Assembly (NCBI RefSeq): GCF_009834025.1
Contig: NZ_CP047156.1
Location: 806,001 to 870,000 of the forward strand
DNA from: Epidermidibacterium keratini
GTDB lineage: Bacteria > Actinomycetota > Actinomycetes > Mycobacteriales > Antricoccaceae
Direction of reading: 5' to 3'
DNA: 64,000 bases
How positions within the stretch are numbered: the stretch's first letter is position 1; each line of letters opens with the position of its first letter. A program made the translations under genes and the position numbers. Shown piece by piece: positions 7,369 to 32,828 of the stretch. The notes beneath the pieces are model-generated. The model was given only the letters and a program-made list of their open reading frames with translations, was not told where the DNA came from and did not search any database.

Positions 7369-8112
7369 GTGAACGAACTCACCACACTGAGCATGATCGG
7401 CCCGCTGCCTGAGCGGCCGGCGGCATGGAAGAGCTCGTCGACATCCTCACCGACCTCGACCCTCGACTACCTCTACGCAAAAGCCGAACCGCCGAACGCC
7501 GCATCCCTCAACCAAGCGCTCTTCAAGCGCATCGTCATCGACGACGACGAACGAGTCACCTACGAGCCAACCGACGCCGTCGCATGCGTATTCGCCCACC
7601 TCGACGCGGAGGTGGCAGACGGCAGGACCCCGGAAACGAACCTGCCCCGCGATTACGCGGGGCAGGTTTCGAATTTCTCGACTTATGTGGGCATCTTGGG
7701 GCGTCACTCAAAACTGATTGCTCTAGCGACGTCGGATGAGCTCAAACTGAGCGAGCGACTTGACGCACCACCGAACCCAACGAGTCGACGGACCAGTTTC
7801 AGACTCGGCCGCGCTGAGACAGCGAACATCGCGCGGCGTTACGGTCAAGGAGACGTCGTTGCGCGGATCGCCGAAGACTCGGGTGTCTCACCTGGCACGG
7901 TGCGGCGAATCGCTACCAATGCGGGTATCAAATTGCGGGCGTCCCGGGTGACCGCGATGGAGGCAGACCAGATGATGGCCCTCGCCGACGACGGATTCAG
8001 CCTGAACGAGATAGCCCGCCGCGTGGGACGGTCCCCGCACACAGTGCGACGTGTGGTTCGGAAAACTCGTCCGACAATCGGGCACTCGAGCGATCCCCGA
8101 CCATTCCGGTGA
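7369..8112 (+). pseudogene. Large serine recombinase C-terminal remnant fused to a two-HTH module
   Basis: The frame begins with LYAKAEPPNAASLNQALFKR and continues IVIDDDERVTYEP, the pattern of the last 80-100 residues of large serine recombinases (compare LYSRLDDDGRAQLNEAVFEH in the intact copy at 29308). The catalytic, recombinase and zinc-ribbon domains are missing, so this is a 5'-truncated gene and the GTG at 7369 is not meaningful as a start. A strong hairpin lies inside it (7639-7668). The downstream half carries two helix-turn-helix motifs (DVVARIAEDSGVSPGTVRRI and SLNEIARRVGRSPHTVRRV) like the C-terminal DNA-binding domains of small resolvase-type recombinases. The same fusion occurs at 9790-10563. 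Confidence 0.6.
7639..7668 (+). terminator. Strong hairpin in recombinase tail
   Basis: Arms AACCTGCCCCGCG and CGCGGGGCAGGTT pair perfectly (13 bp) around an ATTA loop and are followed by TTCGAATTTC. It looks like an intrinsic terminator lying inside the open frame. Hairpins occupy the equivalent place in the other two recombinase tails (10044-10075 and 30926-30959). Confidence 0.55.
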
Positions 8113-8411
8113 ACCTCGGGCTCGGCGCGCTACCGCGACCGTCCGTACTGCGAGTCGAGCGTGGACATCGGCGTGTCACGCGCCGTCGCGAGGCCCTCTC
8201 TGGTAATGCAAAGCCGCGACAGGGTAACGTGGGAGGTCTGATTCGAGTTCTTGCGCACGGCGTGTCGGTAGACGAGTCCTAAGCACGTAGCCAAGAGAGC
8301 GGTACGATCGGGCCACCAGAGTTACACCAGTGTATTTTCGCAGGTCAACGGGCGAAACCGCACGCCGATTGCTTGACATGGAGGGGTTAAAGTTGTTCAC
8401 TGAGGCCAGTC
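8113..8411. other. 299-base gap without a recognised gene
   Basis: Nothing convincing is seen. A TTGACA at about 8374 could be a -35 box for the gene at 8412, but there is no matching -10 box at proper spacing. Confidence 0.4.
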
Positions 8412-8780
8412 ATGGAACACGTGTACGACCCTCCAAGAGAGGTCCAAGAGACTCCCGAGCCAATCGAAGATCAGGATCACGATCGTTGCCCGGAGTGCGG
8501 GCACGAGTTGGACTTGCCCCCACCTCCAACCATCCGCGCGCTTGGATCGATCGGAACGGGAATCGACATGCCCACTAGAGTTCGGTCCGCGCGAAGAGAG
8601 ACCTCGCCGATCGTGGTCCCCATCGAACGGTCGAAACCGATTGATCGAGCCAACGAGCTTGTTCGGATTGGTCAAGAAATTCGTAAGAAACGAATGCGCC
8701 CAGCGCGCGGCTTTCGCCGAAAGGTCTACCCTCTCGGTCGTCCAGGGTTTTCAACTGGAGAGAGTTACTCGAATCCCTAG
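8412..8780 (+). CDS. Small hypothetical protein with a CxxC zinc-ribbon-like motif
   Basis: A 122-residue protein, no family recognised. An acidic, proline-rich N-terminus is followed by DRCPECGHELDLPPPP (one CPxCG knuckle at about residues 27-32, usual in rubredoxin/zinc-ribbon proteins, with no second pair visible). The C-terminus is strongly basic, which suggests nucleic-acid contact or a decayed gene. An AGG about 9 bases before ATG 8412 serves as ribosome binding site. It converges with the minus-strand frame that ends at 8777. It lies among mobile-element remnants. Confidence 0.45.
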   Translation: MEHVYDPPREVQETPEPIEDQDHDRCPECGHELDLPPPPTIRALGSIGTGIDMPTRVRSARRETSPIVVPIERSKPIDRANELVRIGQEIRKKRMRPARGFRRKVYPLGRPGFSTGESYSNP

Positions 8781-9343
8781 GCGGGTGTGACGTCGATCTC
8801 CGGATCTGCGATCTCCTGCGCGATGGCTTCAAGCATTTCAATCAGTGTCTTCGTGTCACGTCGGCGGCGCGGTGACAGGAAACTTTCGTCCTGCTCGGTC
8901 ATCGATGACAATACGATCGACCCAACCGGAAGAACTCCACCGATGACAACCTCTAATTCACCAGGATCTTCTGAGGTCTGAATTTCGACATCGAACTCGT
9001 CTTCGTAGTCTGGCGGCCTGAACCACACAGGCACAGCCAGGTAGGACTTCCATCTGTCGTCGTCAACTCCGGCTGTCCAATACGTCGCGCAGCCTCTGGT
9101 GAAGGCCTGTACAGCCGCGATAGGTGAGTCTGAACGAAGGGGAGTTTTGCGAATCGTTAGCGGATCGCTCCACGTGCCTACCGAGGACGCCCAGAGGGCA
9201 AGTTCTCTGTTCGTTTCCGGGTGCCAACGCAGCCAAAGCTCGAGTTTGAGACGTTCTCCCGGCAGGCCGCCGAACTTGGTACGGATGCCCGGCTCGGCTT
9301 GAACACGGGCAGAATCGGCTCGCTTACCTAGCCTTGTCGGTCG
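8777..9343 (-). pseudogene. Protein-like frame of about 188 codons without a normal start
   Basis: From a TGA at 9346-9344 down to the TAG at 8777 this frame is open and has protein-like composition (KLELWLRWHPETNRELALWA, GVDDDRWKSYLAVPVWFRPP, GGVLPVGSIVLSSMTEQDES). The first usable codon is GTG 9034, which would leave only 85 residues and discard the tryptophan-rich half. No ATG, GTG or TTG lies between 9343 and 9035. The frame is -1 relative to the gene at 9328-9774, whose stop overlaps it by 16 bases. It may be the second half of a gene split by an indel, be expressed through a rare start such as CTG, or be reached by frameshifting. The family is not recognised. Confidence 0.5.
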
Positions 9344-9774
9344 TCACCTCGCACGGGACGGAGATCAGGAGCAGTGATTTCGGTCCGCATGTCGTCGTGG
9401 TAGATCGAGAGGCCGATGACTGAGCCTGCGAGGGCACGATCTTCCAGGTCACGGATCAGGCTGGCCGCTACCGGATCTTCCGAGAGAGACCCGGCAAGGA
9501 GGGCTATGTGAGCACGGATCACCTGTGGGCCACGCGAGACAACTGGGGTTCGTCCGTCTAGCGTGTCGAGGACCAACTGCCCGACGCCTGGATGCACCTC
9601 TACCGTGTCGGGATATCGCGCCTCAAGCATCGCAAACCATCCGGTGGCTATGACCTTGGCTGCTTCTTCGGCGTCGCAGTCGGGATGATCTCCTCGTTGC
9701 ATCGAGGAGGGGAACTTGAGCACTGGCTTGATCGAATCAGCCTTGTGATTCATGGAGTTCCGCTCATGATCCAT
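9328..9774 (-). CDS. Hypothetical protein, possibly the first half of a split gene
   Basis: A 148-residue soluble protein of unknown family. Recognisable stretches are CDAEEAAKVIATGWFAMLEA, VGQLVLDTLDGRTPVVSRGP and IYHDDMRTEITAPDLRPV; the composition is acidic. ATG 9774 lies inside a perfect palindrome (9773-9786); ATG 9753 (MNHKADS) is an alternative about 7 codons on. Its stop overlaps the beginning of the startless frame 8777-9343, which lies -1 to it, so the two may be one gene broken by a frameshift, or a coupled pair. Confidence 0.5.
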   Translation of the reverse strand: MDHERNSMNHKADSIKPVLKFPSSMQRGDHPDCDAEEAAKVIATGWFAMLEARYPDTVEVHPGVGQLVLDTLDGRTPVVSRGPQVIRAHIALLAGSLSEDPVAASLIRDLEDRALAGSVIGLSIYHDDMRTEITAPDLRPVRGDDRQG

Positions 9775-9786
9775 CTAGCACTAGAT
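9773..9786. promoter_or_regulatory. Perfect 14-base palindrome at a start codon
   Basis: ATCTAG, CA, CTAGAT (plus strand) covers the start codon of the minus-strand gene at 9774. It also sits directly at the edge of the recombinase-element remnant that begins about 9790. It could be an operator or a junction scar. Confidence 0.35.
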
Positions 9787-9789
9787 TAG

Positions 9790-10563
9790 CACACCTGTGC
9801 GCGTACCGACGTCACGTTCGACGAAGCGCTGCGGGTGGCTGAGCTGCAGGCCACGCTGCTGCACGAGCTCATTGGAGGCGGCGAGGGCATTATCGAGGCC
9901 GCCATTGCTGACCTGCCGCGTATCCGCATCGTTCGTGAAGCCATCGCCAGCATCGGCAGCAGTCACTGGATCCTGGAGGCGGCGAAGGTCTACCGGCGGA
10001 TTGAGGAAAAGTCCCCGGAGACGGCCGAAAACCCGCCAAACGGAGAATCGGTCTCCCTCGCGGAAGACCGATTCTTGAAACCCCGATTAGCCTACGTGCT
10101 GTTGGCCGGTGGTTTGAGTAAGACACTCATGGTGGCCCTATCGAGTGTTGATACAAACAAATGGACACCTCTGTTGGCGCGGGACTGGGAGCCCTCCCCG
10201 TCGGCTCAACCTGCGCCTGACTATGAACGAAGGGGCCCACTTCGTCAACGGCAAAAACGCCTGACCCCTGAGCAGGTCGCAGCGATGGCCGAGCGCTACC
10301 GCGAGGGCGCCAACGTCAACGAGCTCGCTGCTGAGTTCCGGTGCGCTCGGCAAACAGTGGCCCTCCGGTTGAAGGAGCACGGGGTGGTCATGCGCAACCA
10401 GCCTGCTACTGCCGAGGAGATCGCCCGGGTCATCGAGCTGTACGCATCGGGCCTCTCCCTGGTCGGTGTCGCCGAGCGCACCCGGTTCTCACCGAAGTCG
10501 GTGCTGAATTACCTGCGGGCCGAAGGCGTCCAGCTGCGGGACACTCACGGTCGAGACCGCTAG
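9790..10563 (+). pseudogene. Deleted ImmA/IrrE-recombinase remnant fused to a two-HTH module
   Basis: One frame joins three pieces. From 9797, VTFDEALRVAELQATLLHEL and AAIADLPRIRIVREAIASIG match the N-terminal half of the intact ImmA/IrrE protein at 28655 (SFAEALRTAELQAALLHECL; AAIANLPRIRIARETLASVG). It stops at SSHW and switches to LEAAKVYRRI...RLAYVLLAGGLSKTLMV, which matches the last 50 residues of the intact recombinase (ITEAATVYRRI...LSDVLLASGLSKNVMV). So an internal deletion of about 2 kb relative to the intact element removed the HEXXH motif and nearly all of the recombinase. The rest (about 10240-10563) holds two HTH motifs ending RDTHGRDR, a tail seen in resolvase-like DNA-binding domains. 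No start precedes it (TAG at 9787). Confidence 0.7.
10044..10075 (+). terminator. Hairpin in recombinase-remnant tail
   Basis: Arms AGAATCGGTCT and AGACCGATTCT pair perfectly over 11 bp around a 10-base loop, followed by TGAAA. It corresponds in position and partly in sequence to the hairpin at 30926-30959 in the intact recombinase gene. Confidence 0.5.
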
Positions 10564-10569
10564 GGGCAG

Positions 10570-13410
10570 TTACGGGGCCTCGGTCGCACGTAGTGCTGCC
10601 ACTCGCTGGTCAAGATCCACCTCGCCGCGTTCGCCCATCTCGTTCATTAGTGCGATCGCGTCCTGAGTCAACTGATCGTCGCCCGCATCCATCGCTGCGG
10701 CAAGTACTGGAGCGAGCGCATGATGGGTCAGATCCCAGTGGTCCCGGTGGTGCGTTTCAGCGGGCTTCAGCAGGAGTCGAAGGACCTCGAGTGCGTCCTG
10801 CGGATGCGCAGGTGCCGCTTCCGCCAGCTGTTCGCCGATCATCCCGTGTGTTTCGAGCTCTGGATCGAGCGAGATGGCTTGCTTGAGGCGGGTCAACCAC
10901 CAATCCGCCCCGAACTTGCCACACGTGACAAACCAGTAGAAGTCCATGAGTTCGGCGCTGTCCTCGGGGTGTCCTGCCACGTGCGCAGCCCGCTCGTCCC
11001 AAAGTTCCGCGAGGCGGTCCCGGAACACGTCGTCCACCTTGTCGGCCCGAAGGAAGCTCCATGCAACGTGGCCGATCGCGTCGCCTCGCACGTCAGCAGG
11101 TGCGACTGAATAGAACGCCACGCGCAGCGGGTCGGCGTGATCGATGTGGCCTCGGATAACCGCCTGAACGACCCATTGGCCGATTCGGGCTTTCGGAGTG
11201 TCCTGATCGCCCCACCCGACGGCGATCTCGTCGGCTTCTCCGAGGGCGGCGATCATCGATCCGCTCAGACGCCGGTACAGCGCCGGGTGGTAGTAGTGCA
11301 TCGCAATCGCCGTGGTCAGCGCGATCTGCTGCCCGCGGTCGAGTGACGCTTCCGACCCGAAGTAGGTCTCGAAGTGCATGTCCAGCCATTCGGGGGCACG
11401 GTCATGGAGGCGCCCGAGGGCCTCCCCAACTACCGCCCGCGATGCGCCGCGCGGGTCCTGTCGGCCAAGTTCGCGTTCAAGGGACTCTGCGGCCGATGCG
11501 TACCAACTAGCCGCCGGTCCGTGGGTAACAAGGTGCAGGAGTCCGCGAACCATGTTTGGCCACTGCCAATTCAACGACGTGGTGAGCGGATCCATGCCGG
11601 ACTCGTTCGAAGACTCGTAATTGGCGTAGTCATTCCACGCGACTTCGTCTTCTGAGGTCTCGATGAGGAGACTCGCGATCTGCCTGAGAGCGTCCGCCGG
11701 GATCCGGTCACTGCTCTTGACCTTCGCGAACTCTTCGAGGATTCCTACCGCCGCTTGCTTGGCTCCCCGGAAGTCTGCGTCGTCGTCGAGGCGCCCCCCC
11801 TCGACGGGAAAGTCGGACGCGTATCCGTGGCTGACTACGTAGGAGACCGCCGCGACCACAGCCCCCCATGGAAGGTCGAGGTCCGCCTTAAATGCGGCCT
11901 CCCAGCCGCTCAGCACAGCCCGGATATAGGTCGGGCGCAGCCGCTCAGCGAAACCGGTTGCGTCGCCGAGCGCAAGGGGGTTCGCCGTAAGCACAGCGCT
12001 CAGGACCCGGCCTTGGCCTTCGTGTGACGGTTCCGCAGTCCACCGATCACCCGAGTCGTGCCAGCTCTCTAGGTGTGCAAGCAGCTCGGTCGGGCTCATG
12101 GCAGCCATGGCGTCTTGGTCGAGCGGGCTGTTCGGCCCTGTCCACGATGTCATTTCGAATGCGGGCGCAAGGGGACGCTCGATGACACCGCGAGATGCGT
12201 CGAGATCGTCGAGCTGAGCTTGCAGCACCGGAGGCAGATGATCCCGCCCAATTCCCGCGAGCACTTGGTGCCGCCAGGTCTCGTCCCAGCGCTGAAGCGA
12301 CTCATCGATCGACTCGCTGCTTTCGCCGCGGTCAGCCATGTTCTTGCGAATGCGTGCCGACGAGTCGGCGGTGAAGTGACCCTCGTTGATCACTTCGACA
12401 AGTACGTCGGCAGCTGAGCGTGCGACAAGCGCCTTTGCTAGCGCGACGAACTCAAGACGCGCGCCCTGATCACGACACAGCGGCTTGGCCAGCAAATCTC
12501 CACCCATCGAAACCAGCTTCCTCACGAGGTGCGGGTCAGCGGCTTCTTCGAGCGCGTGGGCCATCGAGTACATCGCGATGCGCTGCGCAATAAGGATTTC
12601 GTTCTTCTCGAAGAGTCGCCACGTCGTGTCGGGATCAGTGCCGAAGTCGCGCTTCGCCAAGTCGCGCACGCAGTCGATCAGTGCATCTTCGATGTCCCGA
12701 TGCCCATCGCCACGAGTGGCCACAGTTGACCGACTGAAGCCACTGTGGTCGAAGGTGTCGCTGACGGACTTCTTGATCCGCTCGTACTGAGTCAGCCACG
12801 GCAGGACGGTCTTCAGCCCATTGCTCCCGAGGGCATTGGCCACGCGCGGGAGTTCATGGGAGTACCAGTAGGCCTTGAGCTCGACGACTGGGTCCCGTGC
12901 GTCGTCCTCAGCGTCACGTGGCCGGAACAAGGTGTTGGCGAAGGTGATGCCGTACTTTTGCCCACCTTCCAGAAGGTTGACGGCAAACGAAACCAGGTCT
13001 CGCGGGTCCGTCCTCCAGCCAAGCCCTCCCGCCTCGGTCCAGGCCTGGACAAGCGGCTTTAGGCGAGCCGCCTGGTCTGCGGGAACCTTCGCGCCGATGA
13101 CGAACGCCGCCCTACGCACCCAAGAGTTTGCAGTCGATTCAAGGCTGAGAAGGACGTCGATGACCTGGCTTGGGGCTTCTTCAGCCACGTTCAGCAGGTA
13201 GCTGACTTCTGGCCAGAAGACGTCCTTGATGTAGCCGTCGCCGGTCGCCTCGGGCTCAGGCGGATTCGTGAATACGTTGAGGTCAGCTAGCGGCTTCACC
13301 CAGTTCGGGTTCTTGAGACCTTCATAGAACACCCTCCGAAGTTGATAGGTCGTCAACCGACGGACAGCTGCCTCCACCTCCGCGGTCGTCGGTACGGCGT
13401 AGTCGCTCAT
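10570..13410 (-). CDS. Large uncharacterised protein coupled to the type I R-M operon
   Basis: A 946-residue soluble protein with no signal peptide or membrane segment. The sequence is rich in Leu/Ala/Trp helices. An N-terminal stretch (FWPEVSYLLNVAEEAP and WVRRAAFVIGAKVPADQAAR, about residues 66-118) has the look of HEAT-like helical repeats found in large bacterial defence proteins. No Walker A, HEXXH, HNH or PD-ExK motif was seen by eye. The start ATG overlaps the stop of the 222-residue gene upstream (ATGA), so it is the fifth and last gene of the hsdM-hsdS-hsdR operon. The coupling suggests a partner or safeguard of restriction, such as an effector scaffold, but the activity is unknown. 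It ends 6 bases from the convergent remnant at 10563. Confidence 0.8.
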   Translation of the reverse strand: MSDYAVPTTAEVEAAVRRLTTYQLRRVFYEGLKNPNWVKPLADLNVFTNPPEPEATGDGYIKDVFWPEVSYLLNVAEEAPSQVIDVLLSLESTANSWVRRAAFVIGAKVPADQAARLKPLVQAWTEAGGLGWRTDPRDLVSFAVNLLEGGQKYGITFANTLFRPRDAEDDARDPVVELKAYWYSHELPRVANALGSNGLKTVLPWLTQYERIKKSVSDTFDHSGFSRSTVATRGDGHRDIEDALIDCVRDLAKRDFGTDPDTTWRLFEKNEILIAQRIAMYSMAHALEEAADPHLVRKLVSMGGDLLAKPLCRDQGARLEFVALAKALVARSAADVLVEVINEGHFTADSSARIRKNMADRGESSESIDESLQRWDETWRHQVLAGIGRDHLPPVLQAQLDDLDASRGVIERPLAPAFEMTSWTGPNSPLDQDAMAAMSPTELLAHLESWHDSGDRWTAEPSHEGQGRVLSAVLTANPLALGDATGFAERLRPTYIRAVLSGWEAAFKADLDLPWGAVVAAVSYVVSHGYASDFPVEGGRLDDDADFRGAKQAAVGILEEFAKVKSSDRIPADALRQIASLLIETSEDEVAWNDYANYESSNESGMDPLTTSLNWQWPNMVRGLLHLVTHGPAASWYASAAESLERELGRQDPRGASRAVVGEALGRLHDRAPEWLDMHFETYFGSEASLDRGQQIALTTAIAMHYYHPALYRRLSGSMIAALGEADEIAVGWGDQDTPKARIGQWVVQAVIRGHIDHADPLRVAFYSVAPADVRGDAIGHVAWSFLRADKVDDVFRDRLAELWDERAAHVAGHPEDSAELMDFYWFVTCGKFGADWWLTRLKQAISLDPELETHGMIGEQLAEAAPAHPQDALEVLRLLLKPAETHHRDHWDLTHHALAPVLAAAMDAGDDQLTQDAIALMNEMGERGEVDLDQRVAALRATEAP

Positions 13411-14075
13411 GACTGGGCCTCTACAGTCTTCCGATTTGCGGAGGTGAGGATGTCCTCGATGAGGCTCTTGTTCTCGAAGAAGGCCGATCTCATGGCGTCG
13501 ACGTGGTCGTCGAAGATGCCGATCTTCGCCGCAAGCTCCTCATCGGTCGGCAAGTCGGCCTCGGACTTGTCCCTCAAATGGCCCCACCTGACGAAATATT
13601 CACTCAGGTCACGCCACTCCTTGACGGCAGGTGCCTTGGGATTTCCATCATCTGTGAGGAAGGCGGCAAGAGAACTCAGACGACGTCGATCCTCGTAACT
13701 CGCCGTATCGATGAGCCGCGACAGCGCCATCGCTGCTGGCTTCGGCACGGGGACGTTTTCGGCTTCTTGAGTCAGATCCATGTCCGGGTGGTCGATGCGC
13801 AGTTGCGGGAGAGCGCGCACCTGGACTGACGCCGGGACGTAACCATCGACCTCGTCCTGGCTTGCAGCCCCTTTGCCGAGAAGAGCTGCGGTTGGGAGTC
13901 GATTCATGACCTCTCTCATCGAGTGGCAGATGAGCAAGATCCTTGTCCGCTCGTGACCAGCGTCCGGCTTCGCGCCCAGCATTGATGTTGCAGCGCGATA
14001 TGTGCTGGCGAGGTCGGGCTTCTTATCCTCCAGCCAGTCGGCGATCGCTTGGCGCCGGGCGTCGCCCGCGTTCAT
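13407..14075 (-). CDS. Uncharacterised protein coupled to hsdR
   Basis: A 222-residue, mostly helical, soluble protein with no recognised family. Notable stretches are ARRQAIADWLEDKKPDLAST at the N-terminus, RTRILLICHSMREVMNRLP (about residues 43-61) and LSEYFVRWGHLRDKSE. The His- and Arg-bearing helices recall small HEPN-like helical proteins, but the diagnostic RxxxxH spacing is not present, so I do not assign that. Its ATG overlaps the hsdR stop (TGATG) and its stop overlaps the next start (ATGA), so its expression is tied to restriction subunit synthesis. Confidence 0.78.
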   Translation of the reverse strand: MNAGDARRQAIADWLEDKKPDLASTYRAATSMLGAKPDAGHERTRILLICHSMREVMNRLPTAALLGKGAASQDEVDGYVPASVQVRALPQLRIDHPDMDLTQEAENVPVPKPAAMALSRLIDTASYEDRRRLSSLAAFLTDDGNPKAPAVKEWRDLSEYFVRWGHLRDKSEADLPTDEELAAKIGIFDDHVDAMRSAFFENKSLIEDILTSANRKTVEAQS

Positions 14076-17000
14076 CAGTCGCCCGATCCTGCGCTCAGCC
14101 CGAAGAAGCGGTCGAAGAACTCCCCAAGGCGGGTAAGCACGCGCTGCTTCTTCTCGCCGTGGCTGCCGCCTGCGGAGAAGCGGGAGGCGGGCGGAAGGAT
14201 CTTGGTGATCGCGGTGCCGGTGGTTGGGATCGAGCCGTCGCGGAAGGCATGGTCGACGAACGCTCGTGTCTCGTCAGGCTTGAGGTTCTCGTCGGTGATG
14301 ATCGCCTCGAGCTCGGCGGTGCGCTGGGCTTGGATGTAGGCGCGCCATTCCTCGTCGATCTCGCCTGATGCGGAGACACGGTCGACGAAGTCGAGAATGA
14401 GGTCCTTCTTGTTGCGCAGGGTCGGGCTGGAATCGACGGAGCGCTGGATGTCCATGAGGGCCGACATTTCCTTGTCGGCTCCGTTGCCTCGCGCTTCGCG
14501 CCACTTGGCGACGAGCATGAGGATGTAGTCAACGTTGATCTCGACCTGCTTGATCAGCTCGATCTCGAAGACGACGTCATCGTTGATCGCTTCCTTCTCG
14601 CTCTCGCCTTCCCTGCGGAACTCGGCGTAGAGGTTGAGGTAGATGCTGCGGTAGTCCTGCATCTGGCGGGCGGTGATGATTTCGTTGCCTGCGAAGTCGT
14701 CGAACGACGTCAGGATGTTCTGCAGGCGCAGGATCGCGCCGAGGAGGGCGATGAACTCCTTCTGCGCGGTCTCGCCAACGATCGGCTCACCCAGCGGGAA
14801 CTTCTTCAACAACTCGGTGGCCCTGTCGGCGTACTCGTCGTAGTACTCGGCGTATGGCTTGAGCAGCACAATGCCGCGGGCGTCCTTGTTGCCGAACAGG
14901 GCGATGGCGTCGTTGGTCTCTTCCTCCAGGTCACGGAAGGAGACGATGTTGCCGTAGGTCTTGACCGAGTTGAGGATGCGGTTGGTGCGCGAGTAGGCCT
15001 GGATCAAGCCGTGGTTCACGAGCCGCTTGTCGACGAACAACGTGTTCATCGTGGTGGCGTCGAAGCCGGTCAGGAACATATTGACCACGATGACGAGGTC
15101 GATCTCGCGGTTCTTCAGCCGGAGCGACAGGTCCTTGTAGTAGTTCTGGAACTTGTCGGCCGAGGTGTCGTAGCTGGTGCCGAAGAGCTTGTTGTAGTCC
15201 TTGATCGCCTCGTCGAGGAAGTCGCGTGAGGACTGGTCGAGTGAGCTGGTTTCGAAGCCTTCTTCGTCGAGGTAGTCGTCGCCGACGTCCTCGTTCGCGG
15301 CGTAGGAGAAGATCGTGGCGACCTTGAGGCGCTGGTCGGGCAGGAGGTCTTCCTGCTGCTTCTTGAACTCCAGGTAGTAGCGCTTCGCGGCCTCGATTGA
15401 CGCGGTGGCGAAGATGGCGTTGAAGCCCTTCACGCGGCTGGCCTGCTTGAGCTCGGAGACCTTGTTGCGGCTGCCGACCACGTCCGCGACGTTGGTCACC
15501 ACCGCGTAGTCGTACCCCTGTGTCCGCTTGGTCTTCTGCTCGAAGTGCTCGAGCGTGTAAGCGGTGACCTGGCGGAGGCGCTCCGGGTCGAGGAGCGCTC
15601 GCTCGGTATCGATGGCACTGACCTGCTTGTCGCCGACGCTGTCGGGCACCTTGACGGTGTTGACGTAGTCGATGCGGAACGGCAGGACGTTCTTGTCGTT
15701 GATCGCGTCCACGATCGTGTAGGTGTGGATCGCCATCTGGTGATCCGCAGGCGGGCAGCCCGCGGGGTCGCCGTGCTGGTAGCAGCCGAACGCTTGCGGC
15801 GTGGTGCGTAGGCTCGGGTTGCCGCCGCTGGATGAGTTGACCGCGAAGATCGGCGTGCCGGTGAACCCGAAGATGTTGTATCGCTTGAACGACTTCGTGA
15901 TCGCGGTGTGCATGTCGCCGAACTGGGACCGGTGACACTCGTCGAAGATCAGGACGATGTGGCCGTCGTAGATCGCGTGGCCCTTGTTCGCGTTGATGAA
16001 CGTCGCAAGCTTCTGGATCGTGGTGATGATGATCTTCGCGCTCGGATCCTCGAGCTGCTTCTTCAGCACTGAGGTCGAGGTGTTGGAGTTGGCCGCGCCC
16101 TTCTCGAAGCGGTCGTACTCGCGCATGGTCTGGTAGTCGAGATCCTTGCGGTCGACCACGAACAGCACCTTGTCGACGCTTTCCATCCGTGACGCGAGTT
16201 GCGCGGTCTTGAATGAGGTCAGCGTCTTGCCGGACCCGGTCGTGTGCCAGACGTAGCCGCCCGCGCTGACGGTGCCGAGCTGCTTGTAGTTCGTGGCGAT
16301 CTCGATCTTCTGGATCACCCGCTCGGTGGCGACGATCTGGTACGGACGCATCACCAGCAGAAGCCGGTCGGCGGTGAGTACGCAGTACTTCGTCAGGACG
16401 TTGAGCAGCGAGTGCTTCGCGAAGAAGGTCTTGGTGAAGCCGGTCAGGTCTTGGATCGGGCGGTTCGCAGCGTCGGCCCACCAAGAGGTGAACTCGAACG
16501 AGTTCGAGGTCTTCTTGCCGCGATTGGCGCCCGTCGCTTCCTTCACGTGCTGGAAGCGCGTGGTGTTCGAGTAGTACTTGGTGAGCGTGCCGTTGCTGAT
16601 CACGAACAGCTGGACGTACTCAAAGAGGCCGGAGCCTGCCCAAAAGCTGTCGCGTTGGTACCGGTCGATCTGGTTGAACGCCTCGCGGATGTCGACGCCT
16701 CGTCGCTTGAGCTCTACATGGACGAGCGGGAGTCCATTGACAAGAATCGTGACGTCGTAGCGGTTGGAGCGGCGCGCCCCGCCGTCGCCTTGCCCGATCT
16801 CGTACTGGTTGATGACCTGCAGCCGGTTGTTGTGGATGTTGGTCTTGTCGATGAGCTGGACGTTCTTGGTCGTCCCGTCGTCGCGCTTCAGAACCTGGAC
16901 ATGGTCCTCTTGGATGCGGACCGTCTTCTCGACGATGCCGTCGTTCGCTCCGGCGACCTTCTCGCTGAAGAACCGTTCCCACTCGGTATCGCTGAACGTG

Positions 17001-17233
17001 ATCCCGTTCAGTGCTTCCAACTGGGAACGGAGGTTCGCGACAAGCTGCGCCTCGGTCGTGATCGGGAGGTAGTCGAACGCCTGCCCCTGCAGAAGCTTGA
17101 CCAGCTCGCGCTCTAGATCGGCCTCAGACTGGTACGAGGTCGCAGACGCCGCGTCCGGCACGAACTCAGCAACAACCGTGCTCTCAGAGGACACGGCGAT
17201 CGGCTCGTAGCGCATCACCTTCGACTCGCTCAT
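14075..17233 (-). CDS. hsdR: Type I restriction enzyme, HsdR endonuclease/translocase subunit
   Basis: A 1052-residue motor and nuclease subunit of a type I restriction-modification complex. It cleaves unmodified DNA after ATP-driven translocation. The PD-(D/E)xK nuclease lies near the N-terminus (Asp160 in RYDVTILVNG; Glu174 and Lys176 in HVELKRRG), with a following QxxxY motif (Gln188-Tyr192). The SF2 helicase motor has Walker A TGSGKT (332-337), DECH box (431-434), FGFTGTP (456-461) and late motifs FLTGFD and QAYSRTNR. All key residues are present, so it should be active. Its ATG overlaps the hsdS stop and its stop overlaps the next gene, so HsdR is translated third in the operon, after the protective methylase subunits. 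Confidence 0.96.
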   Translation of the reverse strand: MSESKVMRYEPIAVSSESTVVAEFVPDAASATSYQSEADLERELVKLLQGQAFDYLPITTEAQLVANLRSQLEALNGITFSDTEWERFFSEKVAGANDGIVEKTVRIQEDHVQVLKRDDGTTKNVQLIDKTNIHNNRLQVINQYEIGQGDGGARRSNRYDVTILVNGLPLVHVELKRRGVDIREAFNQIDRYQRDSFWAGSGLFEYVQLFVISNGTLTKYYSNTTRFQHVKEATGANRGKKTSNSFEFTSWWADAANRPIQDLTGFTKTFFAKHSLLNVLTKYCVLTADRLLLVMRPYQIVATERVIQKIEIATNYKQLGTVSAGGYVWHTTGSGKTLTSFKTAQLASRMESVDKVLFVVDRKDLDYQTMREYDRFEKGAANSNTSTSVLKKQLEDPSAKIIITTIQKLATFINANKGHAIYDGHIVLIFDECHRSQFGDMHTAITKSFKRYNIFGFTGTPIFAVNSSSGGNPSLRTTPQAFGCYQHGDPAGCPPADHQMAIHTYTIVDAINDKNVLPFRIDYVNTVKVPDSVGDKQVSAIDTERALLDPERLRQVTAYTLEHFEQKTKRTQGYDYAVVTNVADVVGSRNKVSELKQASRVKGFNAIFATASIEAAKRYYLEFKKQQEDLLPDQRLKVATIFSYAANEDVGDDYLDEEGFETSSLDQSSRDFLDEAIKDYNKLFGTSYDTSADKFQNYYKDLSLRLKNREIDLVIVVNMFLTGFDATTMNTLFVDKRLVNHGLIQAYSRTNRILNSVKTYGNIVSFRDLEEETNDAIALFGNKDARGIVLLKPYAEYYDEYADRATELLKKFPLGEPIVGETAQKEFIALLGAILRLQNILTSFDDFAGNEIITARQMQDYRSIYLNLYAEFRREGESEKEAINDDVVFEIELIKQVEINVDYILMLVAKWREARGNGADKEMSALMDIQRSVDSSPTLRNKKDLILDFVDRVSASGEIDEEWRAYIQAQRTAELEAIITDENLKPDETRAFVDHAFRDGSIPTTGTAITKILPPASRFSAGGSHGEKKQRVLTRLGEFFDRFFGLSAGSGD

Positions 17234-18399
17234 GCGGCGACCTCAGCGAAAGTCAGCAATTTGTCCCGGTAGTACTCGTACTGCTGGCGACGGGCCTGTA
17301 GTTCAGCGGGAAGACCTTCGGTCAGGCTGTTGGTAAGTGCCTCGAACCTGTCAAGGATCTCGACAATCTTCTTCTGCTCAGCGATTGGTGGAACCGGGAC
17401 AACGACGGACTTCACGATGTCCGCGTTGAGGTTCTGCACCGTCCCACTACCGGCACGCCGCGCGAACTCGGACTGGACCGTCTTGGATCGCAGCAAGTGG
17501 TACAAGAAGTCAGGAACAAACGACTCGGCAAAGTCGCTGATCGCCAGCCATCCGTCGTGGATACAGCCTTCGATCTGCGAGATGTACGGACGGCCGAAGC
17601 TCATCGAGTTCGACATCACGAAGTCGCCCGGCCGCACTCGACGCGACTTCTGGGCGCCTTCCGGCGTGACGTACTGCGCGGTCTTGGTAATGAACTTGTC
17701 TCCCGCAGGGACGTCGCCGATCTTGATCCATGGAACACCACTCTCGGCGTCCGTGAGGAACGACTGGATCGGACGAGGCGAAGCCCCTCGAACAATCGAG
17801 GCGAGATCACCCATCGGAATCCTCCGTACCCCCCCCGCTTCAGGGAAGGTCAGAAGCGTGTCCCGGTAGTGGGCATACTGCTGGCGCCGCGCTTCTAGCT
17901 CCGCTTCTAGCTCCGCTTCTAGCTCCGTGAACGCGTCCAATACCTTCACGATCTCGCGCTGCACCTCGACCGGCGGCACTGCGATCCGGAAGTCAGTGAT
18001 CATAGGCTTGCGGATCGAGGTCACGGTCGCGTTCACGGCCTTAGCCAAGATGAACCTCTTAAAGTTGGCGCGGAAGAAGTAGTACGCGTACTTCGCGGAC
18101 ACGTCGTCAGCCTTGAAGGCGATCCGATACGCCCGCTGATGCAGGGCGTACTTACCGTTGACGTAGTGAAAGATGTCCCCGACTCCACCCTCGCCAGGAA
18201 TCAAGACGGCTTCCTCGTCGAACTCGAATGAGTCCTTGCGCATCACGTCCTTCGAGCGCACGTAGAACGGGTACTCGCCATCCTCGGTCGCGTCCTTCCG
18301 GTCGCTGCTTCCAGTACCAACCGCAGCGATCTCGCCGACCGACCGGAATGGGACACCGCCGGGACAGTGCTCGCGGAGCAGGTCGTCGATGCGGCTCAC
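17230..18399 (-). CDS. hsdS: Type I restriction-modification specificity subunit HsdS
   Basis: A 389-residue specificity subunit. It has two target recognition domains (about residues 1-140 and 185-340) each followed by a conserved helical spacer: LDAFTELEAELEAELEAR with RRQQYAHYRD (about 154-180), and LDRFEALTNSLTEGLPAELQ with RRQQYEYYRD near the C-terminus. The two halves recognise the two parts of a bipartite DNA site. The central spacer contains three LEAE-type units encoded by three perfect 12-bp repeats (17890-17925). The start is GTG 18399, overlapping the hsdM stop (GTGA). HsdS joins HsdM to make the methyltransferase and HsdR to make the restriction complex. Confidence 0.95.
   Translation of the reverse strand: MSRIDDLLREHCPGGVPFRSVGEIAAVGTGSSDRKDATEDGEYPFYVRSKDVMRKDSFEFDEEAVLIPGEGGVGDIFHYVNGKYALHQRAYRIAFKADDVSAKYAYYFFRANFKRFILAKAVNATVTSIRKPMITDFRIAVPPVEVQREIVKVLDAFTELEAELEAELEARRQQYAHYRDTLLTFPEAGGVRRIPMGDLASIVRGASPRPIQSFLTDAESGVPWIKIGDVPAGDKFITKTAQYVTPEGAQKSRRVRPGDFVMSNSMSFGRPYISQIEGCIHDGWLAISDFAESFVPDFLYHLLRSKTVQSEFARRAGSGTVQNLNADIVKSVVVPVPPIAEQKKIVEILDRFEALTNSLTEGLPAELQARRQQYEYYRDKLLTFAEVAA
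17890..17925 (-). repeat. Three perfect 12-bp repeats in the hsdS spacer
   Basis: CGCTTCTAGCTC occurs three times without a gap or mismatch (plus-strand reading). Because 12 is a multiple of 3, loss or gain keeps the frame and changes the helical spacer by 4 residues. In the EcoR124 family a change of 4-residue repeat number in the same location alters the spacing between the two half-sites. Confidence 0.85.
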
Positions 18400-19961
18400 G
18401 TGGCACTCTCCAGGTCGGCCACGATCGCGTCGATCTGCGTGCGCAACTCGGCCTGACGCGCCACGATCCCGGCGATCCGCGCGTTCAGTTCGGTGATATC
18501 GATGGCCTCACGGGTGTCCGCGGCCTCAACCCAGGAGGTCACAGAAAGGTTGTAGTTTTTCTCAGCGATCTGCTCGGTCGGGATGACGGCGCTGAAGTGT
18601 TCGATCGTTTCGCGCTTGGTGTACTCCTCGAGGATCTTCTGCTGATGCTCGGGCAGGAGCTTGTTCTTGTTTCCGACGCGCTTGAACTCGGCGGAGGCGT
18701 TGATGAAGAGCACCGAACTGTCCTTGCGAGACTTCTTGAGCACGAGGATGCAGGTCTGGATCGTGGTGCCGAAGAACAAGTCGGGAGGGAGTTGAATGAC
18801 CGTGTCGACGTAGTTGTTGTCGATCAGGTACTTGCGGATCTTCTGCTCGGCTCCGCCTCGGTACATAACTCCGGGGAACTCGACGATGGCCGCTGTGCCG
18901 TTGACCGCTAGCCAGTTGAGCATGTGCATCGTGAATGCCAGGTCGGCGTAGCCCTTCGGGGCGAGCACGCCTGCGGGCGCGAACCTTGGGTCGTTGATCA
19001 ACAGTGGATTGGCGTCGCCTTCCCACTTGATCGAGTACGGCGGGTTGGACACGATCGCCTCGAACGGCTCATCGTCCCAATGCGCCGGGTCAGTCAGCGT
19101 GTCGCCGTGGGCTATGTCGAACTTCTCGTAGTTGATGTCGTGTAGGAACATGTTGATCCGCGCGAGGTTGTAAGTGGTCAGGTTGATCTCCTGACCGTAG
19201 AAGCCCTGCCGAACGTTGTCCTTGCCCAGGACCTTGGCGAACTTCAGCAGCAATGATCCCGAGCCAACGGCGGGGTCATAGACCTTGTTGACCTTCGTCT
19301 TGCCAATCACCGTGATGCGCGCCAGTAACTCAGAGACCTCCTGCGGCGTGTAGTACTCACCACCCGACTTCCCAGCCTGCGAGGCGTACATCTGCATGAG
19401 GTATTCGTATGCATCGCCGAAAAGGTCGATCGAGTTATCCTCGAAGTTGCCCAGCGGCAGGTCGCCAATCGCGTCGAGCAGTTTGACGAGCTTCTGGTTG
19501 CGTTTGGCGACCGTGTTGCCGAGCTTGCTGCTGTTGACGTCGAGGTCGTCGAAGAGACCTTTCAGGTCGTCTTCGCTGTCGGTACCGATGGCAGAGCCTT
19601 CAATGTTCTTGAAGACTCGCTCCAGCGTTTCGTTCAGGTTGTCGTCTTGTGCCGCACGGGCACGCACGTTCTGGAACAACTCCGAAGGCAGGATGTAGAA
19701 GCCTTTTTCGCTGACCGTCTCTTTGCGTCCGAACTCCGCATCTGCGTCGGGAAGCTTGGTGTAGTCGAAGGTGGCATCACCGGCTTCGTGCTCGCCCTTG
19801 TTGACGTAGGCGGCGAGGTTCTCTGACACAAAGCGGTAGAAGAGCATGCCGAGTACGTAGGATTTGAAGTCCCAGCCATCGACGGACCCTCGCAGGTCGT
19901 TGGCAATCCGCCAGATGGTTTTGTGTAGCTCAGCTCGCTGAGTCTCTTTCGACATCGCCAT
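18396..19961 (-). CDS. hsdM: Type I restriction-modification methyltransferase HsdM
   Basis: A 521-residue N6-adenine DNA methyltransferase subunit. An N-terminal helical domain (about 5-150, WRIANDLRGSVDGWDFKSYV) precedes the SAM-binding motif I DPAVGSGSLL (about 229-238) and the catalytic motif IV NPPY (306-309). GGEYYTPQEVSELLARI just before motif I is the classical HsdM signature. The frame opens at TTG 19964, but ATG 19961 has GAGAGG at good spacing. It is the first gene of the five-gene operon. The 190-base gap upstream (19965-20154) is A/T-richer than its surroundings and probably holds the promoter. Confidence 0.95.
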   Translation of the reverse strand: MAMSKETQRAELHKTIWRIANDLRGSVDGWDFKSYVLGMLFYRFVSENLAAYVNKGEHEAGDATFDYTKLPDADAEFGRKETVSEKGFYILPSELFQNVRARAAQDDNLNETLERVFKNIEGSAIGTDSEDDLKGLFDDLDVNSSKLGNTVAKRNQKLVKLLDAIGDLPLGNFEDNSIDLFGDAYEYLMQMYASQAGKSGGEYYTPQEVSELLARITVIGKTKVNKVYDPAVGSGSLLLKFAKVLGKDNVRQGFYGQEINLTTYNLARINMFLHDINYEKFDIAHGDTLTDPAHWDDEPFEAIVSNPPYSIKWEGDANPLLINDPRFAPAGVLAPKGYADLAFTMHMLNWLAVNGTAAIVEFPGVMYRGGAEQKIRKYLIDNNYVDTVIQLPPDLFFGTTIQTCILVLKKSRKDSSVLFINASAEFKRVGNKNKLLPEHQQKILEEYTKRETIEHFSAVIPTEQIAEKNYNLSVTSWVEAADTREAIDITELNARIAGIVARQAELRTQIDAIVADLESAT

Positions 19962-20154
19962 CAACGCGCCTCTCGCGCTGGTGGGATGTCCGTGTAACTC
20001 TGACCGCTGTTCATTATGACCTCAATTTTAACAAACTTCGAACACTTGTACGAGGATGGTTAGTTTTCGCCGTTTCTCGGTCGAATCATCACACCCATCA
20101 ACGACATTTGCATCGAAGACACACGCGGCGGGGAAGGTCCGGCGGCGTGGCGAG

Positions 20155-22261: not shown

Positions 22262-22519
22262 ATGCCCACGTCACAGAACCATCCAGATCCCGGAGAGCCG
22301 GATTTCAAGTACAGCCGTGTGCGTGGCGAGCGTCGCTCGTCACAGCGCGAACGTGCGCGCCGAGCCCGTGTTAATACAGGCAGCTCGTCCGGGGCGAAAC
22401 GTCTAGTTGTTCGCTCGAAGCTGCGCCAGCAACCCGATATGCGAAAGATCGCTCGCGCTGTCATCGACCTCGCGCAAGCCGACGAACGCCAGTTTGGCGA
22501 TCCGGAGGCACGGTCATGA
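22262..22519 (+). CDS. Small basic element protein (85 aa)
   Basis: ATG 22262 follows AAAGGAGG at optimal spacing. The protein is strongly basic (ERRSSQRERARRARVNTG, AKRLVVRSKLRQQPDMRK), then has a short helical end (IARAVIDLAQADERQFG). Such basic small proteins may bind DNA, but no fold is recognised. It opens the main transfer operon, and its stop overlaps the start of the TraG-like gene (ATGA). Confidence 0.6.
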   Translation: MPTSQNHPDPGEPDFKYSRVRGERRSSQRERARRARVNTGSSSGAKRLVVRSKLRQQPDMRKIARAVIDLAQADERQFGDPEARS

Positions 22520-24660
22520 GTTCGAGTTCGTGGGTTTGGCGCGAACTGGCCCTGCCTTCGCGCATCGATCCGAGCGCTGCCACAGATGCGCTCACGGCGC
22601 TAGCTGGTCTGCCGGGACATCCGTTGGTCGCCCTTGAAGCGATTGGCCGGGACGGCACGGTCGAGTGGCGCCTGGGCGCTCGGACGGATGTCTACCGCGC
22701 AGTGGTAGCGGCATTCCGTGCGCACATTCCGAGCTTGCGTGATGAAGCGGGTCAACAAGTGGACTCCGTCAGCCAGGTTACGTCCGTGCGGCTACCAGCT
22801 AGCCGCCGCTGGCCACTCAATCACCACGGCACCGCACCTGCCATCCGTGGATTGCTCTCGGTGTTCGCATCGACCACGCCAACAGAGTCGCTACGGATCC
22901 AGGTGCTACTCGGTCCGCGCTCCCATCCCTCACGAACGCCGAAGAATGGCACTGGCGGCTACCGCACTCCAGAGTCGGTATCCAAGAAGGCAAAAGAGAC
23001 ACGATTCGCCTGTGAAATCCGCATTGGCGCGAGTGCCGCAAGTCCGACCCGAGTTCGGAGCCTCATCAACCAGGCGGCGGCGGCGCTGCGGGCGCTCGAC
23101 GCGCCCGGTAATCACCTGCATCTTGTTCGGCGTCATGTGGCGGCGTTCGACGGCGCCCGTGCGCCGTGGCTGTGGCGCGTGACGTTGTCGGCCGCAGAGC
23201 TAGCGGCCTTTACCGGCTGGCCTATCGCCGATGCGACGGCCGGGCCACTTCCAGCCGTGCCACCGACTCATCCCGCTACGCTGGTCGCAACGTCCGCAGT
23301 CGCGAGATCTGGCCGCATTCTCGGTGACAGTCCGCTGCAGCGCGACCGACCAATTGCGATCAGCCAGGACGACAGCAGCCGGCATCTGCACGTCCTCGGC
23401 CCAACAGGCGTCGGCAAGAGCTCGCTGCTGGGCAACCTTGCGCTCCAAGACATCGAGGCCGGTCAAGGCGCCGTCGTTGTCGACCCCAAGTACGACCTCA
23501 TTCGCGATCTACTAGAACGGATCCCCGAGCACCGTCGAGACGACGTCGTCGTCCTCGACCCGACCGACCCGTCCCCTATTGGATTGCAACCCCTCGGCGG
23601 ACACGATGCGTTGTCTGCCGACTTATCTGCCGACGTCATCCTCGGCGTCTTCCACTCGCTCTACCGAGACTCATGGGGACCGCGGACCCACGACATCTTG
23701 CATGCCGCCCTGCTCACGCTGGCTCGACGAGGTGACGCATCGCTGGTCATGGTGCCGCTGCTGCTCACCAATCCTGGCCTTCGCCGTTCGATCACTGGGC
23801 GCATTGCCAGGAATGATCCGATGGGTCTTGGCACGTTCTGGGCCTGGTACGAACAGCTCTCCGACGCCGAGCGCTCGCAGACCATTGCGCCGCTGATGAA
23901 CAAGCTGCGCAGCGTCCTGCTCCGTCCAGGCCTTCGCGGCATCTTCGGACAACGCGCTCCGCGCTTCGCGCTGGGCGACGTCTTCAGCAAGCGCCGCATC
24001 CTGCTCGTAGCGCTGCGCAAAGACGCCATAGGCGATGAAGCCGCGCACTTGCTCGGCTCGTTGGTTGTCTCCTTCGTCTGGCAGGCCGCCAAGGCTCGCA
24101 CCGCCGTGCCGCAGCACGCTCGCATGCCCGTATCGATCGTGCTCGACGAGTTCCAAGACGTAGTACGCCTTCACGGCGACGTCAGCGATGCGCTAGCACA
24201 AGCCCGCTCACTCGGCGTCTCGTTCACCCTGGCACATCAGTACCTCAAGCAGGTGCCGCAGTCTCTGCGCGACGCGGTCACGGGCACCGTCCGTTCGCGC
24301 GTCGTATTTAGCACCAACAGCAGCGACGCCCGCGAGCTGGCTGCCACCACCGAACAGCTCCAGGCCGAGGACTTCCGCGCGCTGCCGCGATTCCAGGCAT
24401 ACGCCCAACTCCTCGCCGGCGGTTCGCCGCAAGGCTGGTGCTCGCTCCAGACTCGCCCACTGCCCTCACCGTGCAGCAACGCAACCGAGCTACTGCAGCA
24501 TTCACGATCCAGCTACGGGCAACCGCTCAGCGATGTCGAGGCCGACCTGCTCGAATTCATCCAGCCCGCAGCGAACGCGCCCGCCCAACAATTCGGCCGC
24601 CGACGGAACCCATTCAATCCGAACGATCAATCCGCATCCACGAAAGGAGACGCCTCATGA
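22516..24660 (+). CDS. VirD4/TraG-like conjugative coupling ATPase
   Basis: A 714-residue P-loop ATPase. Walker A GPTGVGKS lies at 295-302 in a HLHVLGPTGVGKSSLLGN context, Walker B IVLDEFQD at 541-548, and VVVDPKYDLI (about 320-329) matches the type IV coupling-protein/HerA-FtsK group. The N-terminal 280 residues are family-specific and have no obvious transmembrane helices, so membrane attachment may come from the small membrane proteins upstream. It should pump element DNA during transfer. Both ends overlap neighbours (ATGA), so it is part of a coupled operon with the replication-relaxation gene. Confidence 0.85.
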   Translation: MSSSSWVWRELALPSRIDPSAATDALTALAGLPGHPLVALEAIGRDGTVEWRLGARTDVYRAVVAAFRAHIPSLRDEAGQQVDSVSQVTSVRLPASRRWPLNHHGTAPAIRGLLSVFASTTPTESLRIQVLLGPRSHPSRTPKNGTGGYRTPESVSKKAKETRFACEIRIGASAASPTRVRSLINQAAAALRALDAPGNHLHLVRRHVAAFDGARAPWLWRVTLSAAELAAFTGWPIADATAGPLPAVPPTHPATLVATSAVARSGRILGDSPLQRDRPIAISQDDSSRHLHVLGPTGVGKSSLLGNLALQDIEAGQGAVVVDPKYDLIRDLLERIPEHRRDDVVVLDPTDPSPIGLQPLGGHDALSADLSADVILGVFHSLYRDSWGPRTHDILHAALLTLARRGDASLVMVPLLLTNPGLRRSITGRIARNDPMGLGTFWAWYEQLSDAERSQTIAPLMNKLRSVLLRPGLRGIFGQRAPRFALGDVFSKRRILLVALRKDAIGDEAAHLLGSLVVSFVWQAAKARTAVPQHARMPVSIVLDEFQDVVRLHGDVSDALAQARSLGVSFTLAHQYLKQVPQSLRDAVTGTVRSRVVFSTNSSDARELAATTEQLQAEDFRALPRFQAYAQLLAGGSPQGWCSLQTRPLPSPCSNATELLQHSRSSYGQPLSDVEADLLEFIQPAANAPAQQFGRRRNPFNPNDQSASTKGDAS

Positions 24661-25607
24661 TGCGACACACTTCCCTGATCCTCACCGCGCCGCTCGCCTA
24701 CCCGTTCGGCTATTCGGACATTCGCTCGATCTGGCCGGTCAGCTGCCTAAGCGCTGCTTTAGCGGTGCCGAATGACCGAGGCCATTCGGCCTCGGAAGCC
24801 CATAAGGTTTCACGCCTGGGTCACCGACGAGCGGATCACCTGCGGGCAACCCTCAGCGAGCGTGACTGGCGGATACTGCAGCGACTCGGTGAGCACGGCT
24901 TCCTCACCACCGATCAAGTGCAGCGCTTTGTCTTTACCGACCACGCATCACCCGCCACGGCTACTCGCTCGACCCGGCGCACACTAAGCCGCCTGGAACG
25001 GCACCAGCTCATCGTCCGCCTCGCGCGTCAGCAAGGCGGTCCCTATGGCGGGAGCCATCCGGCCTCGTGGCAATTATCCAGCGGCGGCGCTCGATTGCTT
25101 CGCGGTACCGAGAAACACCGAGCGACCCGACCGTCCGTGCGCTGGCTCGCTCACTGCCTCGCCACGGCCGAGACTCACCTGCACGTACGCGAGTGCGCCC
25201 GGAGCCACCGGCTCAGCGTGGACCTCACCGTCGAACCAGACGCGTGGCGGCACTACCTCGGCCATGGCGGACAACGTCTCACGCTCAAGCCCGACCTGCT
25301 GGTTCGGCTGCGTGGGGAAGATACCGACGGCAGCTTCGACGACTGGTGGTTCATCGAGGTTGACCTCGGCACCGAGAGCCTGCCGACCGTTATCAATAAA
25401 TGCGGCCAGTACGCCGCCTACTGCGCATCAGGATCCTGGGACGACTCGTTCGGCGTCATGCCGCGCGTCCTCTGGGTCACCGACAAGCAACGCCGCGTAG
25501 ACCAGATCAGACAGTCCATCGCCCGGAAACGCTCGCTCGCTGACGGCTTATTCAGCACTTCGACACTCGCCAACCTCAGCGACTACCTCGACGGGAGTGC
25601 GACATGA
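24657..25607 (+). CDS. Replication-relaxation family protein
   Basis: A 316-residue protein of the replication-relaxation type found in actinobacterial plasmids and integrative elements. A winged-helix region (about 55-125: LSERDWRILQRLGEHGFLTT and RRTLSRLERHQLIVRLARQ) is followed by an alpha/beta domain containing KPDLLVRL and WWFIEVDLGTESLPTVINK, a nuclease-like Asp...Glu-x-Asp arrangement that is only suggestive. ATG 24657 overlaps the previous stop and has AAAGGAGA upstream; longer frames run into the ATPase gene. It probably acts at the origin of transfer or replication. Confidence 0.75.
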   Translation: MMRHTSLILTAPLAYPFGYSDIRSIWPVSCLSAALAVPNDRGHSASEAHKVSRLGHRRADHLRATLSERDWRILQRLGEHGFLTTDQVQRFVFTDHASPATATRSTRRTLSRLERHQLIVRLARQQGGPYGGSHPASWQLSSGGARLLRGTEKHRATRPSVRWLAHCLATAETHLHVRECARSHRLSVDLTVEPDAWRHYLGHGGQRLTLKPDLLVRLRGEDTDGSFDDWWFIEVDLGTESLPTVINKCGQYAAYCASGSWDDSFGVMPRVLWVTDKQRRVDQIRQSIARKRSLADGLFSTSTLANLSDYLDGSAT

Positions 25608-28240: not shown

Positions 28241-28621
28241 ATGCAACAATCCGATCTCACCAAGCTCGCCGACCTGATCTCGCGCACCCGGCGCGCCGCC
28301 GGGATGACCCGCGCCGAGCTCGCCCGCCAGACCGGGGTCGCCGGATCAACGATCACTCGGATCGAAGAGGCCCAGTTCTGCCCAAGAGCGGAAACGCTGG
28401 CCACGATCGGCAAAGTGCTGGACATCCCGGTCAGCGACCTGTTCGCCGCCGCGGACTGGCTGCAAGACAACGAACTGCCGAGTTTCGCCCCATACCTACG
28501 CACCAAGTACCGGGATCTGCCCGCTGATGCCCGGCAGGAGATCGAAGACACGTTCGCGGGCATCGCCAAAAAATACGGCTACGACGCATCCGGACCGGCA
28601 CCCGGCGATGACGAAACCTAA
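28241..28621 (+). CDS. XRE-family transcriptional regulator
   Basis: A 126-residue protein with an XRE helix-turn-helix at about residues 10-62 (MTRAELARQTGVAGSTITRI and AETLATIGKVLDIPVSDLFA), followed by a short acidic tail (about 75-126). Immediately downstream is an ImmA/IrrE-type protease gene. In ICEBs1-like elements the protease degrades the XRE repressor after damage or signalling and so releases excision genes. The same pairing, next to the recombinase gene, suggests it is the master switch of this element. Two inverted repeats lie upstream. Confidence 0.88.
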   Translation: MQQSDLTKLADLISRTRRAAGMTRAELARQTGVAGSTITRIEEAQFCPRAETLATIGKVLDIPVSDLFAAADWLQDNELPSFAPYLRTKYRDLPADARQEIEDTFAGIAKKYGYDASGPAPGDDET

Positions 28622-31762: not shown

Positions 31763-31919
31763 TCGGTCTGTGCATCGCGCTCAACAGCCGACACAATGCA
31801 GGAACCCGAACCACGTTGTGTGCCGTCTGTGAAGGTGCACAACGCACCACCTGATCCCTCAATACGCACCTTCACCATCACCCGCTGGCCGACCGCCAGC
31901 TCATTCATTGGAGCCCACG

Positions 31920-32807: not shown

Positions 32808-32828
32808 TCGCACGCGCATGATGATCCC

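Follow-up and report, generated by a model that had tools for sequence, protein, structure and literature searches.

The window examined here comprises 64,000 nucleotides (nt) of Epidermidibacterium keratini (contig NZ_CP047156.1, positions 806,001 to 870,000). All coordinates refer to it. On its plus strand two open reading frames (ORFs), 7369-8112 and 9790-10563, each join a recombinase-like end and a hairpin (7639-7668 and 10044-10075, respectively) to two helix-turn-helix (HTH) motifs. A first-pass annotation had described this layout largely correctly and had interpreted it as two recombinase tails fused independently to a two-HTH module. The first ORF consists of the decayed 3' end of a large serine recombinase (7369-7686, relic 0), which includes the hairpin and the recombinase-side half of a putative element attachment site (attP), and of module 1 (7687-8112), the left end of relic element 1, which was recognised by HTH family scores and the module profile. 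For the second ORF the recombinase assignment had to be narrowed. Only 9970-10131, with its hairpin, is a recombinase 3' end (48% over 56 amino acids (aa) to an intact recombinase further right), and 9802-9969 is the 5' part of an ImmA/IrrE-type (Peptidase_M78) protease gene (71% over 56 aa to 28655-29311). A deletion in relic element 1 fused these two fragments in frame; module 2 (10132-10563), the left end of an intact element, follows. Both modules scored with resolvase-type and related HTH families (HTH_7, HTH_23) and are only 25% identical, in agreement with the earlier description. In its own genome the module profile scored strongly at these two places only (expect values (E) of 4e-42 and 2e-30; next, 9e-6), and in a search of the same genome at the DNA level the second match was only 46 nt long.

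The arrangement extends well beyond the two ORFs at which the annotation had stopped. It continues to the intact recombinase body (29308-31104, plus strand) and to a tRNA-Ala (GGC) on the minus strand (31016-31091). The order from left to right is relic 0 body end and module 1, relic 1 body end and module 2, intact body and tRNA-Ala. The intact element spans 10132 to about 31017, i.e. 20.9 kb. At the first junction the core is GTGGGCATC (7687-7695), at the second GTGGCCCTA (10132-10140) and at the tRNA GTGGAGCTA (31018-31026), all given on the plus strand; the first lies at the same place as the cores of the half-site sets described below. The frame of the intact recombinase crosses GTGGAGCTA into the antisense strand of the tRNA, which supplies its last codons. 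Relic and intact recombinase ends align up to GTGG and then diverge, the intact one into the tRNA, the relic one into HTH sequence. Whether the join is an attachment core had been proposed as a check; it proved positive, with the switch point at GTGG or a tRNA-specific variant of it. As far as the sequence can tell, both ORFs very probably lie where neighbouring integrated elements of a tandem array meet; these elements inserted at the 3' end of tRNA-Ala, the target of the array. The suggested separate events hold up only as two successive element junctions, not as fusions to a foreign module: the HTH part appears to be a regular portion of the recombinase gene. Here 7462-8079 (relic 0 plus module 1) aligned with residues 494-714 of an intact fused gene of 724 aa at locus L244 (35%, E 1e-23), and the alignment was unbroken through hairpin, core and module.

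Sixty-one genomes, the own one included, were searched with the two proteins; the first matched in 9 and the second in 16. Nineteen contigs carried a module. Twelve of these had a downstream tRNA, and in 12 of 12 the nearest one was encoded on the opposite strand and pointed its 3' end toward the module. In the window and in G041, G050, G020, G032 and G057:C26 the module is separated from the tRNA by a recombinase gene, or a fragment of one, whose end is at the tRNA (Ala, Val, Ser, Ala and Met, respectively, in the five other genomes). A class-wide sample contained the module in at least 46 of 394 genomes, a lower bound because at most ten candidates were scored per genome. From 70 places in this sample 40 stretches were taken, some with two places each. 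A tRNA was present within 20 kb downstream in 16, and the first one was on the opposite strand in 15 of them. A recombinase abutting a tRNA was also seen in stretches from G275, G103, G141, G005 and G004.

For named species the intact 728-aa recombinase-HTH protein of L046 was used as a query; it retrieved 62 loci, and almost every one came from a named actinobacterial record. Recombinase ends were counted over the 62 recombinase matches that extended to profile position 500. A tRNA was located within 250 nt of 46 ends, and all 46 face the tRNA 3' end. The recombinase frame stays open into the tRNA in 45 of the 46; two of the 62 ends run on into a module. The targets were Val(TAC) in 17 cases, Lys(TTT) in 7, Val(CAC), Ala(TGC) and Ala(CGC) in 5 each, Ala(GGC) in 4, and Val(GAC), Arg(CCT) and His(GTG) in one each. 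Together with Ser, Pro and Met from other stretches this amounts to eight tRNA identities. Between a simple conserved motif and the core the spacing took twelve values from 56 to 96 aa, and the frame was kept nonetheless: the motif-to-core phase was 0 in 44 of 46. Of the two exceptions, L214 is frameshifted; L216, whose translation does read through, was left unplaced by the script. All 29 genomes reached via 32 of the 62 loci contain the module, a proportion obtained with a different profile and threshold than the 46 of 394 above, and one that includes G479, originally found by its module.

Several individual loci deserve a remark of their own. In Knoellia koreensis (L247/L217) module and recombinase are less than 1 kb apart, apparently on one contig. 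The recombinase tail resembles an antisense tRNA-Lys, though tRNA calling gave none there. Perhaps this is a minimal or decayed element. In Mycetocola reblochoni (L188, 11659-13524) a Val-Cys-Gly tRNA cluster occurs twice in tandem next to the recombinase. At L049 (about 10440-10675) a unit of about 117 bp with a partial copy of a tRNA-Ala 3' end is tandemly repeated before the tRNA, and at L032 (G042:C115) a stretch similar to this unit is positioned directly before the module at the other end.

If the gene is split at attP, the start of the module should be the other attP half, i.e. the inverted-repeat partner of the recombinase end. This prediction was tested in two sets. Set 1 contained the 14 elements with both cores placeable by hand; G002, G006, G020, G042, G054, G057:C18, L120, L123, L133, L142-L144, L150, L151, L153 and L155 had no clear arm and were left out. 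Recombinase end and module agreed best at shift 7, with 10.07 of 17 (other shifts 3.2-5.8; left flank control 5.0; modules of other elements 7.75), and recombinase end and tRNA agreed best at shift 2 (9.36). Set 2 started from 13 pairs, 11 of which gave a score (L218 unscored, L226 unplaced). The result was 10.09 at shift 7 and 9.0 at shift 2; the flank control gave 5.82, and shifts 8 and 5 reached secondary values of 7.36 and 6.91, respectively. When the module arms were shuffled 2000 times, no shift ever scored above 6.5 of 17. The outliers G416 (tRNA shift 8), L212 (module shift 8) and L213 (module shift 5) were retained. The core of G032 was set one base early; by arithmetic its best shifts become 9 and 4 instead of 7 and 2. 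In both sets the motif in the tRNA, the presumed chromosomal attachment site (attB), is thus 5 bp nearer to the core than that in attP (shift 2 vs 7). In serine integrases the zinc-domain motif moves inward by the same amount between attP and attB (PMC3783163).

The module-side core matched its own tRNA better than the tRNAs of other elements (1 of 20,000 shuffles was as good), and an element at tRNA-Pro has GTCGGGCTG at both ends. Ten close recombinases (45 pairs) had a mean identity of 91% in the 300 bp leading up to the core; beyond the core, where the tRNAs differ, the mean was 35%. Conversely placed was the match between Intrasporangium L224 and genome G004, which were 100% identical over 1000 bp from the core onward and 28% identical over the preceding 200 bp.

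Six genes carry recombinase and HTH parts in one frame (L046, L185, L193, L243, L244 and L245). In L193 and L046 the resolvase-type catalytic and Recombinase domains and the Zn_ribbon are all above the Pfam cut-off; in the window recombinase Resolvase and Recombinase are above it and Zn_ribbon is below (20.8 vs 25.3). A predicted model of L185 (mean predicted local distance difference test score (pLDDT) 75.6) best matched serine integrase complexes (E 1.5e-17); its predicted template modelling score of 0.38 makes the arrangement of the domains unreliable. Two long helices at 380-473 form a predicted coiled coil. Residues 538-603 have a pLDDT below 50, the core codon falls within them at residue 552, and two three-helix domains follow. 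All domains of the body, the predicted catalytic one included, are on the same side of the core. Purifying selection acts on the module: the ratio of nonsynonymous to synonymous substitution rates was computable for 10 of 11 pairs and was 0.16-0.42 in these. Ahead of the module in G462 a 899-aa open frame had no recombinase match. Against the NCBIfam model of the CRISPR repeat-binding protein Cbp1 the modules 7687-8112 and 10132-10563 scored 40 and 31 bits, with a cut-off of 140. This likeness is due to a common multi-HTH build, not to membership.

A second recombinase at a tRNA on the same contig as a fused gene was present in G004, Gulosibacter (L193/L211), Sediminivirga and Leucobacter wl10 (L245/L220); in Sediminivirga two fused genes are followed by a recombinase and tRNA-Ala. 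These arrays, and the order in the window from the most decayed element at left to the intact one at right, would fit an insertion of each newcomer at the tRNA.

Taken together, the recombinase gene in a family of actinobacterial mobile elements appears to contain the element's landing site. Each element would encode one long recombinase with catalytic, recombinase, zinc-ribbon and coiled-coil parts, a floppy linker and two HTH domains, and attP would sit in frame within the DNA for the linker. Therefore, the gene would be split when attP recombines with attB, which is the antisense strand at a tRNA 3' end. After integration the body would be at one end with a new tail translated from antisense tRNA, and the HTH module would be left at the other end, with the core codon (usually GTG) opening its frame. 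An incoming element re-inserting at the tRNA would push the older elements outward and join the older body in frame to its own module. From an excised circle the full-length protein would be made. The ends, frames, half-sites, tandem fusions and module selection make us highly confident of this account. The first-pass annotation had held that its fusions would dissolve if the modules were ordinary parts of the recombinase family without a junction. Half of this applies: they appear to be ordinary parts, yet a junction exists, the element's own attP.

Several points weigh against it. No circle, excision or expression was seen. The window yielded no empty site: the left flanks of the window and of G042 were compared with relatives and are non-syntenic, although one left-flank gene of G002 recurs in G004, about 9 kb from its tRNA. 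Fourteen of the 62 recombinase ends have no tRNA within 250 nt, seven of them within 216 nt of a contig end and seven not. L143 breaks the opposite-strand rule, L214 its reading frame. The pairing with a module was checked for only part of the recombinases. Hand placement of the cores limits the half-site sets, as does the incomplete independence of their elements, since the sets contain related families. Of 705 plasmid records with a match none covered 80% of the fused protein, and a module-only query with module 2 had no match in the phage collection.

Among the other explanations, the one that survives best regards the module as a separate small gene, e.g. an excision factor, which merely lies beside attP, the common frame being incidental or only an aid to translation. 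In integrated elements the modules are mostly solitary, their frames are open, and selection acts on them. Yet the frame is preserved across the core in 45 of 46 recombinases despite tails of variable length, six one-frame genes exist, and the upstream flanks of stand-alone modules vary by host, thus no fixed promoter moves with them. We consider this explanation improbable. A stand-alone module was also encountered on a plasmid of Microbacterium sp. No. 7 (NZ_CP012698.1; L177, 14866-15315), beside a gene annotated as site-specific integrase; no recombinase annotated in that stretch is serine-type by name. Far less credible is the proposal of the first-pass annotation that the elements integrate preferentially into two-HTH genes resident in the chromosome. 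It would account for the join being an attachment core at which the module exactly begins. However, the modules are carried across hosts with element DNA, next to host-specific upstream flanks, and are located at the end opposite the recombinase, and the recombinases adjoin tRNAs; the proposal was rejected. Chance read-through of decaying genes into neighbouring HTH genes, for which the decay of relics 0 and 1 and the deletion joining a protease start to a recombinase end might speak, was likewise rejected as scarcely conceivable, since intact, conserved genes read through in the same way and the first ORF aligns across hairpin and join to the intact 724-aa gene.

What a split at attP would do to the enzyme is a more tentative matter. 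Loss of the module would alter its behaviour. Most likely, the module would help integration and its loss would lock the element in, or the freed module would act separately in excision. The loss may control direction, which is our leading guess, affect the choice of target or matter for transfer. A specific version, to which we give somewhat less than an even chance, is that integration is itself a direction switch: the tailed enzyme, made only from a circle or a tandem junction, would integrate, and self-truncation would leave a different enzyme, either locked or capable of excision, perhaps with the freed module in trans. If so, arrays with intact fused genes would be re-armed elements. Self-truncation as a control of directionality thereby becomes directly testable.

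The elements share several properties with large serine integrases such as those of phiC31, Bxb1, Listeria LI/A118 and the SPbeta type, i.e. the Resolvase, Recombinase and zinc-ribbon body, the best matches of the L185 model and the 5-bp difference between attP and attB half-sites. They differ by the additional two-HTH C-terminal module, an attP in frame inside the gene and tRNAs as targets. In the integration-dependent immunity of mycobacteriophages, attP is in a coding gene and integration alters the C-terminus; there the gene is a repressor and the enzyme a tyrosine integrase. Classical tRNA islands of tyrosine integrases have a displaced tRNA fragment at the far end and a tRNA rebuilt from the element, a pattern absent here: counted from the core, module end and tRNA agree in no more than 5-8 of 8 bases. 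Archaeal suicidal (SSV-type) integrases also have the recombination site in their own gene and are split upon integration (PMC8371274). Those are tyrosine recombinases that are inactivated by the split, whereas here Pfam and fold indicate a serine recombinase which would retain its whole catalytic body and lose an accessory module. Integration of a serine recombinase into a tRNA gene was called rare in the accessible portion of PMC3218068, which describes it for Mycobacterium elements at tRNA-Leu and phage phiRSM1 at tRNA-Ser and there mentions neither a split gene nor an HTH module; eight tRNA identities and many genera are involved here. The arrangement was not reported in the open-access literature searched, and a prior description is possible in subscription papers and preprints, which were largely outside that search. 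The elements would constitute a bacterial, serine-type counterpart to split-gene integrases, directed against eight tRNA identities in many actinobacteria. They point to serine integrases with a specificity for the T arm of the tRNA, which are of interest as tools.

Precise ends are obtained in addition for islands and their restriction cargo. In the intact element the minus strand carries a type I restriction-modification system (14075-19964) with HsdR (14075-17233), HsdS (17230-18399) and HsdM (18396-19964). Adjoining it at 10570-14075, also on the minus strand, two proteins of 946 and 222 aa had no Pfam match; for the larger PADLOC gave only a weak Dsr1 match (E 4e-4). Possibly they are undescribed defence genes. 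A coupling-protein-like gene (TrwB_AAD_bind, 22516-24660) and a Replic_Relax gene (24438-25607) on the plus strand are candidate transfer genes. An XRE regulator (28241-28621) and the ImmA/IrrE-type (Peptidase_M78) protease (28655-29311) are 5' of the recombinase on the same strand, and homologues of both likewise precede the recombinase in G041. Near the recombinase end a terminator-like hairpin of 15 pairs (30926-30959, minus strand) is positioned to end the tRNA-Ala transcript. Such hairpins as a general tRNA terminator were rejected, as only this one in the window was convincing; a deliberately narrow scan gave 0 of 20 other recombinase ends against 5 of 63 shuffles. On the tRNA side the array is flanked by two adjacent ORFs rich in acidic DxDGDG-like repeats (31908-33580), and in relatives DNA related to them is found several kb from the same tRNA.

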